A stretch of DNA of 64,000 nucleotides from Rubripirellula sp. (GTDB lineage: Bacteria > Planctomycetota > Planctomycetia > Pirellulales > Pirellulaceae), in assembly GCA_028823035.1 (NCBI GenBank), contig JAPKCI010000004.1, positions 1 through 64,000 of the forward strand, given 5' to 3'. A model generated the notes under the pieces. That model made no database searches, was not told the DNA's origin, and was given only the letters and a program-made list of their open reading frames with translations. A program made the position numbers and the translations under genes. Below, one piece after another: positions 12,043-17,001 of the stretch. Numbering within the stretch: the first letter of the stretch is position 1; each line of letters starts with the position of its first letter.

Positions 12043-13626
12043 TCAGCCCTTGGGGTGTGATTTCTCGGAAACAATCCGGTTGATCGCGTTGAGCATCGCC
12101 AGAATAGTACTTTCGACACTATCGGTACTGACACCAACACCACGGTAGGTGCGTCCCTTGTGTTCAACCTCAAGGTTCACCTCGCCAATGGCGTCACGTC
12201 CAAGCGTTGCGCTTCTTACGCTGAAGTCCTTGCAAACCAATTCAATTCCAGTGATCTTTTCGACAGCCCAGAAAACGGCATCGATAGGCCCATCACCCAT
12301 TTCAACGCACTCTGTTTCTTCCTTGTCGCCACGGCGCAAACTCAACTCAACTCGTGGTTCACGTGATTTACCGCTCGTCACCACGTAATCAACCAGCGCC
12401 CACTCCTCCTCAACACTGCAACTGATCTGCTGCTGAACGAGTGCCATAATGTCGCCATCGTAGATCTCTTTCTTCTTGTCGGCCAACAGCTTGAATTGCT
12501 CGAACACCACCTGCAACTGTTCGCCCGTCAAAGTAAAGCCAAGTTTCTTGGCCCGATCAGCTAAGGCAGCTCTGCCACTATGCTTGCCGAGAACCAAATC
12601 TGTTTTGGAGAACCCCACTTCCTCCGGTGACATGATTTCATAGGTACTGCGTTCTTTCAGCATGCCATCCTGATGAATTCCGGCTTCGTGCGCGAATGCA
12701 TTTCGCCCCACAATGGCCTTGTTGCGCTGCACCTGGATACCGGTCGTTCTGCTGACCAGACGACTGGCGGGCACCAACCTCTTGGAGTCAATTCGGGTTG
12801 CACACTGGTAGAAGTCACTGCGGGTCTGCAGCGCCATCACCACTTCTTCAAGAGCCGCATTCCCAGCTCTTTCTCCGATCCCGTTGATGGTGCACTCAAT
12901 TTGCCCCGCGCCAGCTGCGACTGCAGCCAAACTGTTACCCACGGCCATACCAAGATCATCGTGACAATGTGTGCTCACGACAGCCTTGTCGATGTTCGGG
13001 ACACGATCATTCAGCATTCGGAAGCGATCGTAGATTTCACTTGGAGTCGCATATCCGACCGTGTCAGGAATATTGACGGTCGTTGCGCCGGCGTCGATCG
13101 CTGCCTCCACAACGCGACACAGAAAATCGTACTCCGTCCGGCAGGCATCTTCGGGCGAGAATTCAACGTCATCGCAGTAGCTCACCGCCCGTTTGACTCC
13201 TGCGATTACACGCTCAAGGATTTCATCCGGACTCATTCGCAATTTAAATTCACGATGAATAGCACTGGTCGCAAGAAACACATGGATCCGTGAACTGGGA
13301 GCAAACTTGACCGCCTGCCAGGCAGCATCGATGTCTTTGTCGTTACATCTAGCCAAGCCACAAATCGTGGAGCCACGCACTGTCTGTGCGATTTGTTTGA
13401 CTGCCTCAAAATCACCCGGGGATGCAATGGGGAAACCAGCTTCAATGATGTCGACGCCCATTTCAGCCAACAACTGGGCGACCTCCAACTTCTCTGCCAA
13501 ATTCATACTCGCGCCCGGTGACTGCTCACCATCACGCAGAGTCGTATCAAAAATACGAATCATCCTTGGCTCGGACTGGCTGGAGTCATCACTGTTGGCA
13601 TCTTGGGCCGGATTAGGATGCGACAT
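12043..13626 (-). CDS. leuA: 2-isopropylmalate synthase
   Basis: IRIFDTTLRDGEQSPGASM, VVSTHCHDDLGMAVGNSLAAVAAGAGQIECTINGIGERAGNAALEEVVM, NAFAHEAGIHQDG; C-terminal regulatory domain. Confidence 0.95.
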   Translation of the reverse strand: MSHPNPAQDANSDDSSQSEPRMIRIFDTTLRDGEQSPGASMNLAEKLEVAQLLAEMGVDIIEAGFPIASPGDFEAVKQIAQTVRGSTICGLARCNDKDIDAAWQAVKFAPSSRIHVFLATSAIHREFKLRMSPDEILERVIAGVKRAVSYCDDVEFSPEDACRTEYDFLCRVVEAAIDAGATTVNIPDTVGYATPSEIYDRFRMLNDRVPNIDKAVVSTHCHDDLGMAVGNSLAAVAAGAGQIECTINGIGERAGNAALEEVVMALQTRSDFYQCATRIDSKRLVPASRLVSRTTGIQVQRNKAIVGRNAFAHEAGIHQDGMLKERSTYEIMSPEEVGFSKTDLVLGKHSGRAALADRAKKLGFTLTGEQLQVVFEQFKLLADKKKEIYDGDIMALVQQQISCSVEEEWALVDYVVTSGKSREPRVELSLRRGDKEETECVEMGDGPIDAVFWAVEKITGIELVCKDFSVRSATLGRDAIGEVNLEVEHKGRTYRGVGVSTDSVESTILAMLNAINRIVSEKSHPKG

Positions 13627-13664: not shown

Positions 13665-13703
13665 GAAAAAAACAAAAAAACCCGAGTCGCCGGGCGACTC
13701 GGG
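13665..13703 (-). terminator. Intrinsic terminator/attenuator in the leuA leader
   Basis: Minus strand CCCGAGTCGC-CCG-GCGACTCGGG then TTTTTTTGTTTTTTT; ~40 nt upstream of the leuA start codon. Confidence 0.9.
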
Positions 13704-13752
13704 TTCGTTGTCTTTTCGTGCGAGAGACCGCTATGGTCTGTCCAAACCCTTA

Positions 13753-13812
13753 TCATCCGCCTGCTTGGCGTCCTAGTAGGAGAATCGATAGCAGGTGGAT
13801 CTGGATTCGCAT
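13753..13812 (-). CDS. Candidate leucine leader peptide (MRIQIHLLSILLLGRQAGG*), upstream of leuA
   Basis: Minus strand ATG CGA ATC CAG ATC CAC CTG CTA TCG ATT CTC CTA CTA GGA CGC CAA GCA GGC GGA TGA: 5 Leu + 3 Ile in 19 codons, tandem TGA TAA stops, followed by the terminator hairpin. Confidence 0.8.
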   Translation of the reverse strand: MRIQIHLLSILLLGRQAGG

Positions 13813-13818
13813 GGTTGT

Positions 13819-13848
13819 ATGTTAGGCAAGAGAGTGCATCAACGTCAA
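13819..13848 (-). promoter_or_regulatory. Putative sigma-70-type promoter for leader peptide-leuA
   Basis: Minus strand TTGACG - 18 nt - TAACAT, ending 6 nt before the leader-peptide ATG. Confidence 0.55.
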
Positions 13849-13975: not shown

Positions 13976-15055
13976 TCATGCTGCCGCCTTGGGGATCTCT
14001 TTGCCTTGGAGCTGATAGACGTATCTCAGAACTTCGGCAACAGCCTGATAATGATCGGCAGGAATCACATCACCTACGTCGACTGTCTTGTACAAGACTT
14101 GAGCCAAAGGCTTTCGCTCTACGACAGGTATCCCATTCTCAAGTGCAAGCCGTCTGATTTTCTGGGCGAGTACACCAGCCCCTTTGGCAACGACCACGGG
14201 CGCCGGCATTGTTAAAGGGTCGTACTTAATCGCAATCGCCAATTCTGTTGGATTACTGACCACAACATCTGCATCAGGAACTTCGTTTTCAGCGCGTTGC
14301 ATCATCAACTGACGCTGCACCATTCTCCGTCTTGCCGCGACCTGCGGATCACCCTCGGTTTCCTTCAGCTCATCACGCACTTCCTGGTCAGTCATCATCA
14401 GATCCTGCTCATGCTTCCACTTCTGAAAGGCATATTCGAGGATCGCGAGAATCAACAGAGCCATACCAATCCAAACACAGGTTCCCAACAGGCAATTAAA
14501 CAAGGTGGAGGATATTTGCGGAACCGTCTGTGTTGCCATCCCAAGAATTGAATCGCTGTAGTGCCGGACTGCAAAGAATGTCACCACTGCGATGACAGCT
14601 ACCTTAAAGAGTCCAAACCCCAACCTCGCCACGCCTTGCAGCGAAGCAATGCGTTTCACACCCGAAAGCGGATTGATATGACTGAGCTTGGGAGCAATCT
14701 TTTTTGTGCTGAAAACAATGCCAGTCTGGCCCAGATTGACCAGCACTCCAGCGACCAACATCGCAAGCAGCAGTGGGACAGCCGCAAGTGCCAAACGATC
14801 CGCATACCCCAATAGCCAGTGAGCTGCATCGTTGGTCTCCAGGGACTTCATCCGGGGTGTCGACAGCGAATCGATCAGGGCAGCTGCCAATTGTTCTGCT
14901 GCCGGTGCACCAAACATCCACAAGGTAGCAGCAGCTGCGAGTAGCAAACCAGCCGACGTCAGATCCTGACTTCGAACTACCTGCCCCTCTTCACGGGCTT
15001 GCCGGCGTCTGCGTTCGCTTGCTGAATGTTTCTTGTCGCCACTGGAATCTGCCAT
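13976..15055 (-). CDS. flhB: Flagellar type III export protein FlhB (with NPTE instead of NPTH)
   Basis: KKHSASERRRRQAREEGQVVRSQDL, HINPLSGVKRI, LMMTDQEVRDELKETEGDPQVAARRR, NPTELAIAIKYDP. Confidence 0.92.
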   Translation of the reverse strand: MADSSGDKKHSASERRRRQAREEGQVVRSQDLTSAGLLLAAAATLWMFGAPAAEQLAAALIDSLSTPRMKSLETNDAAHWLLGYADRLALAAVPLLLAMLVAGVLVNLGQTGIVFSTKKIAPKLSHINPLSGVKRIASLQGVARLGFGLFKVAVIAVVTFFAVRHYSDSILGMATQTVPQISSTLFNCLLGTCVWIGMALLILAILEYAFQKWKHEQDLMMTDQEVRDELKETEGDPQVAARRRMVQRQLMMQRAENEVPDADVVVSNPTELAIAIKYDPLTMPAPVVVAKGAGVLAQKIRRLALENGIPVVERKPLAQVLYKTVDVGDVIPADHYQAVAEVLRYVYQLQGKEIPKAAA

Positions 15056-15084
15056 CAGCGATCACCTCTTCGCTTGATTGATGG

Positions 15085-15864
15085 CTACCAAAGACTGCTT
15101 AGCTTCGACGCTACTGTCGCCAGTTCTTCCTGGAAAACAAGGCCTACAGATCCAATCGTGATGGACAGAATTACAAGCATCGCCAACGCATTGATACTCA
15201 AACCGATCGCCAGCACGTTGATCTGGGGCAACGTACGACTAATCAAGCCGGTCACGAGATTACTGAGCAACAGTGCTGCAATGACCGGCGCGGCAACCCG
15301 CACTCCGGATGCCATCCCAGCCGACAATTGACCAATGACCAAATCCATCATCGATTCATGAAACTCAACGTTGCCGGCAGGAACTGCTCGAAAACTCTCC
15401 ATGAGGACACCCAACAGAATGCGATGGCCTCCAACCAGCAACATCACAGCTGTCACCAACAATCCGATCAATCGTGCCACCGTTGGCATGCTGCTGGAAG
15501 TCGTTGGATCAACGGCGTCTCCCAACTGCATCCCACCAGTGCTGGTGATCATTTCTCCACCCAATTGCAAGCCAGTAATGATCAACTGCACGGTGGCTCC
15601 AATCAACAAGCCAATCAAGCCCTCTCGTGCAATCGCAATCACCAACTCGATCAAATTGCCAATCTGGGGCAATTCATGAACGGGAGTCTCGCTGGCAACC
15701 GGAGGCAGAACCAGCAAGGTCAACGTAAGCGCCAGAAAAGCACGGATTCTTTTCGGAACACCAACGCCAACGGCAGGCATCGCAATCAGCAAGGTGCTCA
15801 AGCGTGTCATCACCAACACGCCGAGGACCAAGTGTTCCATCAACCAAGTCGTTAGCGACTCCAT
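15085..15864 (-). CDS. fliR: Flagellar biosynthetic protein FliR
   Basis: Polytopic membrane protein with FliR-like motifs (EGLIGLLIGATVQLIITGLQLGGEMI); between fliQ and flhB. Confidence 0.88.
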   Translation of the reverse strand: MESLTTWLMEHLVLGVLVMTRLSTLLIAMPAVGVGVPKRIRAFLALTLTLLVLPPVASETPVHELPQIGNLIELVIAIAREGLIGLLIGATVQLIITGLQLGGEMITSTGGMQLGDAVDPTTSSSMPTVARLIGLLVTAVMLLVGGHRILLGVLMESFRAVPAGNVEFHESMMDLVIGQLSAGMASGVRVAAPVIAALLLSNLVTGLISRTLPQINVLAIGLSINALAMLVILSITIGSVGLVFQEELATVASKLSSLW

Positions 15865-16127
15865 CAGGGTGAGCCCGCATTCTCAAAGATCACCCGAGTG
15901 AACTCCACCATTCTGGTCAGTAACCATGGCAGACAAACAACCAATACAGCTGCCATCGCTAGAATTTTGGGAACAAAGGCTACTGTCTGGTCCTGCACCT
16001 GCGTCAATGCCTGCATCAAACCTACCAGCAGTCCTGCTGCCATCCCTACCAGCAGGATAGGGGCAGCAATGATCACAGCTGCCATCAAAGTCGCGCGACA
16101 CAGATCAACTGCGGTTCCAGCATCCAT
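15864..16127 (-). CDS. fliQ: Flagellar biosynthetic protein FliQ
   Basis: 87 aa, two TMs, AGLLVGLMQALTQVQDQTVAFVPKILA. Confidence 0.93.
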   Translation of the reverse strand: MDAGTAVDLCRATLMAAVIIAAPILLVGMAAGLLVGLMQALTQVQDQTVAFVPKILAMAAVLVVCLPWLLTRMVEFTRVIFENAGSP

Positions 16128-16143
16128 CAGCTCTTAAACTCCC

Positions 16144-17001
16144 TCAGCCCATCGTTCCAAAACTGTCCATCAGCATTTGCACAACCAAACGCCAACCGTC
16201 AACAAGCACGAAAAGAAGCAACTTGAATGGCAAAGATATGACCTGTGGTGGCAACATCAACATCCCCATCGAAATCGTGACACTGGCAACCACAAGATCG
16301 ACGATCAAAAATGGCAGATAAATTTGGAATCCCATCAGGAAAGCTGTTTTTAATTCGCTCAAAATGTACGCGGGCAGCAGAACCCTCAAAGGCACATCTT
16401 CAAAACTGCTTGGCAGAGGCCCATCAGGATCCATGTACTGATAAAAAAGGTGCACGTCATCGTGGTTGCCCGCCACGTCAATCTGCCGAGACATGAATTC
16501 TCGAATCGGAACAGAGCCTGCTTCGTATGCCTCTTCCATCGTCATCGCGACTTGGGGGTCTGTATACGGTTCGATAGCATCGGTGTAGACCCGCGACCAG
16601 ATGGGTGACATCACAAACAAGGTCATGAACAAGGCGATGCTGGTCATCACCTGACTGGGTGGTAAGGACTGCAAGCCAATCGCCTGTCGCAGCAGACCCA
16701 GAACGATGATGATGCGGACATAACAGGTCGTCATCAACAGGACGGCTGGTGCCAAACTGAGTACGGTCAATAACAGCAATACTTGCAAACTGCTGCTCAG
16801 GCCCTCCGGACTGGCCCAGACATCAGGCCCACCTCCCAAACCCTCCAAAGGACTGTTGGTGACAATCGGAAGGGAACTTCCGCTCTTCGAAAGGATCGTC
16901 GGCATCGGGCCAGTAGCGACCTCCTGTGCAGATGCACAAGTGGTCACGGCCACCACCGAGATGAGGACTAATCGAAATAAAAACAGTCGGTTCAACCTCA
17001 T
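16144..17001 (-). CDS. fliP: Flagellar biosynthetic protein FliP
   Basis: Signal peptide; [74 protein letters not shown]. Confidence 0.95.

Follow-up and report, generated by a model that had tools for sequence, protein, structure and literature searches.

A candidate leucine-responsive transcription attenuator upstream of leuA in Rubripirellula and related planctomycetes

Introduction

Does the short gap between flhB and leuA in Rubripirellula sp. hold a regulator that adjusts leuA to the supply of leucine? The window analyzed here is 64,000 nucleotides of contig JAPKCI010000004.1, and the gap lies on its minus strand between the end of flhB (13976) and the start of leuA (13626). A preliminary description of this DNA proposed leucine attenuation upstream of leuA. 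The conserved leucine codons, the terminator and an antiterminator strand adjacent to the stop codons all support this proposal, and the probability that the locus is a ribosome-mediated transcription attenuator controlling leuA by leucine supply is put at roughly 0.88. The mechanism of attenuation is classical and long known elsewhere. As far as the open-access literature was searched, leucine attenuation in Planctomycetota is undescribed until now; no description of a planctomycete leuA attenuator was found there, which does not make priority certain, and PMC4833913 mentions planctomycetes only regarding leader ORFs close to genes.

Results

The elements of the preliminary description, from the promoter, leader ORF and tandem stops through GGGTTTG, the GACC/GGTC hairpin and the terminator to the leuA ATG, were confirmed to the base. 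All lie on the minus strand. The sigma-70-type promoter TTGACG-N18-TAACAT (13819..13848) has its -35 element at 13848-13843 and its -10 element at 13824-13819, and after 6 nt the leader ATG stands at 13812. The leader ORF MRIQIHLLSILLLGRQAGG (13750..13812) comprises 19 codons followed by the tandem stops TGA TAA, and contains five leucine codons, CTG CTA and, further on, CTC CTA CTA. Its 3' end, which encodes R-Q-A-G, forms the small hairpin CGCC-AAGCA-GGCG (13758..13770). Directly 3' of the stops lies region 2, GGGTTTG (13743..13749), the 5' strand of the predicted antiterminator, whose loop encloses the small hairpin GACC-ATAGC-GGTC (13726..13738). Region 3, CGAACCC (13701..13707), is both the 5' strand of the terminator and the alternative partner of region 2. 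The intrinsic terminator (13674..13706) has a 13-bp stem of GAACCCGAGTCGC and GCGACTCGGGTTT around a CCG loop, with a T7 tract. The leuA ATG lies downstream of the T-tract as claimed, at a measured distance of about 48 nt and not the ~40 nt first given. leuA itself (12043..13626) encodes a 527-aa 2-isopropylmalate synthase (NF002086, 748.9 bits against a cut-off of 532). A protector hairpin that pairs region 1 with region 2 is present in the window's own sequence; its conservation in relatives is not clear.

The promoter is the sole sigma-70-like site in 5 kb, a match that is not significant alone because shuffles average 3 such sites in 5 kb. The promoter pattern and a 6-7 nt gap to the ATG are kept by nearly all members of the own clade (own genus, Stieleria and neighbors). 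The leader folds at -70.1 kcal/mol, compared with -47.7 kcal/mol in shuffles (z -5.0, 0/200 shuffles as good), the terminator alone reaches z -5.2 against shuffles, and 97% of cells are paired in its stem. The GACC-ATAGC-GGTC hairpin is paired in 69% of cells, with double changes in 3/4 pairs. The CGCC-N5-GGCG hairpin is paired in 83% of cells in 22 sequences, with few double changes, and is a possible RNA polymerase pause signal or spacer. Short hairpins just before the leader stop also occur in relatives: CCACGTTTACGTGG (L014), CGACGCCCCTGCGTCG (L023) and CCTCCGCGGAGG (L024).

LeuA was matched in 99 of 100 relatives. A phylum-wide sample of 244 genomes yielded matches in 234, many of the distant ones being other members of the enzyme superfamily. 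A strict uniform detector, defined as a Leu-run ORF plus a terminator in the upstream region, was positive in 65 of 90 leuA upstream regions. It was positive in none of the 86 control regions (0/23 ilvB, 0/22 trpE, 0/22 hisG and 0/19 leuC) and in none of 90 shuffled leuA upstreams. The combination is beyond chance because it is conserved at this rate relative to the controls and shuffles, with p-values for the leader that are not fully independent because relatives share ancestry. A Leu-run ORF with an AACCC..GGGTTTTTTT-type terminator behind it occurs in most of the order and nearly all of a second family in the class, and a Leu-run ORF plus terminator occurs in most class-level relatives and some members of other classes. 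The leucine codons and terminator, whose conservation the preliminary description had asked to see in related planctomycetes, are conserved throughout the order, as is the antiterminator strand next to the stop; the ORF and terminator are also kept at class level. With a covariance model built on the own clade, each genome gave a single strong full-length match, at leuA; no second full-strength copy was found in the searched genomes, where the other matches are weak or are terminators on the opposite strand.

About a quarter of the leuA upstreams of the order are negative by the strict detector, and the leader is absent from the leuA upstream regions examined at L021 and L028. At L021 (G021, own genus), the leader has given way to a GCCGGAACAAGCG...CGCTTGTTCCGGC inverted repeat, some 90-290 nt upstream of leuA, and the terminator is decayed. 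The GRQAGG end, put forward as a conserved feature, did not hold up as such: it is kept only near the own genus and is replaced elsewhere by ..GRP, ..ARA or ..ARS. Outside the Leu run, the sequence, length and ends of the leader peptide differ widely between relatives. The leader matched no Rfam, Pfam or NCBIfam family; the peptide scans used peptides of relatives, the own peptide being too short.

The codons of the leaders are biased. CTA accounts for 36.5% of leucine codons in own-clade leaders, compared with 4.4% in leuA genes and 4.0% in the window's long ORFs, an approximately 9-fold enrichment of a rare codon. The enteric leuL is also CUA-rich.

In most loci, region 2, which is complementary to region 3, starts at or just past the stop codon. 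The proposed GGGTTTG:CGAACCC antiterminator is borne out by comparison: 91% of cells pair, and true partners beat permuted ones. Partner permutation was used after per-locus shuffling of region 2 proved too weak to inform. Across 79 loci, the energy of the region 2:3 pairing is -9.99 kcal/mol for true partners and -8.51 kcal/mol for permuted ones (sd 0.24, 0/2000 permutations as good); for the order-level genera alone the values are -11.4 and -9.3, and for 19 class-level loci the test is not significant (p 0.19). The terminator arms of the 79 loci likewise pair better with true than with permuted partners, and the region 2:4 negative control was not significant. There are zero double changes in the antiterminator helix within the own clade, where covariation is silent because regions 2 and 3 are nearly invariant.

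An occlusion model with a ribosome leading edge of 14 nt links the position of the ribosome to this pairing. Predicted antiterminator formation averages 0.72 with the ribosome in the Leu run and 0.18 when it stands at the stop codon; antiterminator formation favors the stall in 82 of 91 loci and the reverse in none (0/91). Shuffling the exposed stretch lowers the predicted value from 0.72 to 0.48 (sd 0.03). In 70 of 91 loci, the final leucine of the run is placed 5-8 codons ahead of the stop, at the distance that the model requires. Under the model, peptide tails such as GRQAGG or RRRIGG would be a spacer, which would explain their presence without sequence conservation outside the clade.

In nearly all of the own clade, only 6-7 nt separate the -10 element from the leader ATG, so that its A is the predicted +1; among shuffles, 0.02% have a gap of 4-9 nt. 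This geometry fits leaderless translation of the leader ORF in the own clade. The leaderless leader of the preliminary description is predicted for nearly all of this clade but not for every relative: many have a predicted 5' UTR, and most other lineages have their predicted promoter some 18-90 nt ahead of the leader ATG. Scattered lineages again show leaderless geometry, among them L029, L089, L104, L113, L132, L278 and L307. On a LeuA tree, 9 changes between the leaderless and 5'-UTR states are required, of which well-supported branches demand at least 7; this count is provisional because the state labels are promoter predictions. A single origin of the leaderless state was considered and rejected; the first tree had used incomplete labels, and a wider promoter scan gave at least 7 changes.

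Discussion

The results presented here are consistent with an attenuator of the classical type. Comparison of related sequences shows all of the parts, their conservation, the codon bias, the alternative pairing and the spacing. The locus has a short ORF rich in codons for the amino acid of the downstream gene, an intrinsic terminator between this ORF and leuA, and an antiterminator that is built with one of the terminator strands and carries signs of selection, which are not significant at the class level. A modeled ribosome at the stop blocks the antiterminator, whereas one in the leucine codons does not.

From this arrangement we infer a transcription start site, leader translation, a ribosome stall and a read-through response. 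RNA polymerase would begin at the A of the leader ATG or at an adjacent base, and the leader ORF would be translated without a Shine-Dalgarno sequence because the transcript would start there. With ample charged leucyl-tRNA, the ribosome would get to the stops and its leading edge would cover GGGTTTG; with region 2 covered, region 3 would pair with region 4, the terminator would form and transcription would stop before leuA. With scarce charged leucyl-tRNA, the ribosome would stall in the CTG/CTA/CTC run, 5-8 codons ahead of the stop. Region 2 would then be exposed, pair with region 3 once it is made and weaken the terminator, such that the polymerase would read into leuA.

The hairpin could instead be a mere terminator of an upstream flagellar export operon, with leuA served by its own promoter and the leucine-rich ORF due to chance. 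In 21 of the 30 closest loci leuA is preceded by an flhB match, and in the window flhB is on the same strand; ORFs of flagellar export, named by eye as flhB-, fliR-, fliQ- and fliP-like, occupy 13976-17001 of the minus strand directly upstream. However, a promoter and the leader ORF intervene between flhB and the hairpin, and leuA loci that lack an upstream flhB also have the leader and terminator. No promoter-like site (best 6/12) is present in the 49 nt that separate the terminator from leuA, and the absence of a Leu-run ORF plus terminator from all control regions, together with the CTA bias, argues against chance. This explanation is very improbable. It is just as hard to credit that the leader ORF, transcribed together with leuA, encodes a small protein with a function of its own, such as a hydrophobic membrane peptide. 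Action in trans is possible for leader peptides, peTrpL of Sinorhizobium meliloti being an example (PMC7298713), but here the peptide varies in sequence, length and ends outside the Leu run, and what is conserved is the codons, the stop position and the RNA pairing. An additional role of the peptide in trans, besides attenuation, is compatible with these observations.

Leucine might also act through translation of leuA or through a ligand-binding RNA and not through ribosome stalling and termination. Mutations in the Streptomyces coelicolor leuA leader, as cited in PMC1262725, were inconsistent with classical attenuation. Actinobacterial leuA carries the LEU element, a pseudoknot whose base stem pairs the leucine codon run with the leuA Shine-Dalgarno sequence (PMC1262725). 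In the planctomycetes, by contrast, most loci have a strong U-tract terminator, the SD-like AAAGG of leuA in the window sits outside the terminator hairpin, and there is no Rfam riboswitch or T-box match. Control of this kind is accordingly highly unlikely, and the classical attenuator type is favored over the LEU element because the terminator is strong.

Among known systems, the enteric leuL of the leuABCD operon (Rfam Leu_leader, RF00512) shares with the planctomycete locus a Leu run that includes rare CUA codons, a mutually exclusive antiterminator and terminator, and a leucine gene downstream. Unlike enteric leuL, the leader ORF is predicted to be leaderless in the own clade, the antiterminator is only 7 bp long and starts at the stop codon, and leuA is not followed by leuBCD. 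The RF00512 model matched neither the window (up to E 10) nor 14 relatives (up to E 1). The Streptomyces lividans leaders leuL1 and leuL2 (PMC8079986) are leaderless Leu-run ORFs, as predicted here. An intrinsic terminator is also present at LeuL2, upstream of leuS, whereas LeuL1, ahead of leuA, has no typical terminator; both belong to another phylum (PMC8079986). The attenuator transcript of S. meliloti trpL (PMC7298713) begins at the leader ATG, like the prediction here, but serves a tryptophan operon in another phylum. The leu leader of Corynebacterium diphtheriae, MNRANLLLLRRGGSQA (PMC5784534), is also from another phylum, with no start site assignable there; its LLLLRRGG end resembles the own-clade ends LLLLRRQTGG and LLLLRRRIGG, which may reflect convergence or a shared constraint.

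Planctomycetes are reported to have few SD genes and to show signs of leaderless or S1-dependent initiation (PMC5397173). Leaderless leader ORFs have precedents in S. meliloti trpL (PMC7298713), S. lividans (PMC8079986) and C. diphtheriae ilvB (PMC5784534). With confidence that falls slightly short of even, we suggest that the leuA attenuator is old in Planctomycetota, perhaps in the wider PVC group, and that initiation at the leader switched repeatedly between leaderless and 5'-UTR modes with the logic of stall and termination unchanged; in the own clade, the ribosome would load at the 5' end of the nascent RNA. The repeated switch at one conserved regulator would offer a natural comparison of initiation modes. 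Attenuation at leuA would bring classical leucine attenuation to a phylum in which no description of it was found. It would also imply that transcription and translation are coupled in planctomycetes, a group whose cell organization has been much debated. The attenuator is an unannotated feature that could be added to many genomes.

Two individual loci deserve mention. At L014, the leader ORF lacks a base near its end, and the usual stop is lost as a result. A finishing ribosome would sit beyond region 2 because the ORF runs about 7 codons further, and this exception could test the attenuation model. L307, from Verrucomicrobia UBA6053, has a leader MIRSGLLRRLLLLLLLEG and a terminator about 168 nt upstream of leuA. 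Its promoter geometry is leaderless (TTGACA-N16-TATTTT-6-ATG), and this candidate suggests that the attenuator may extend beyond Planctomycetota.
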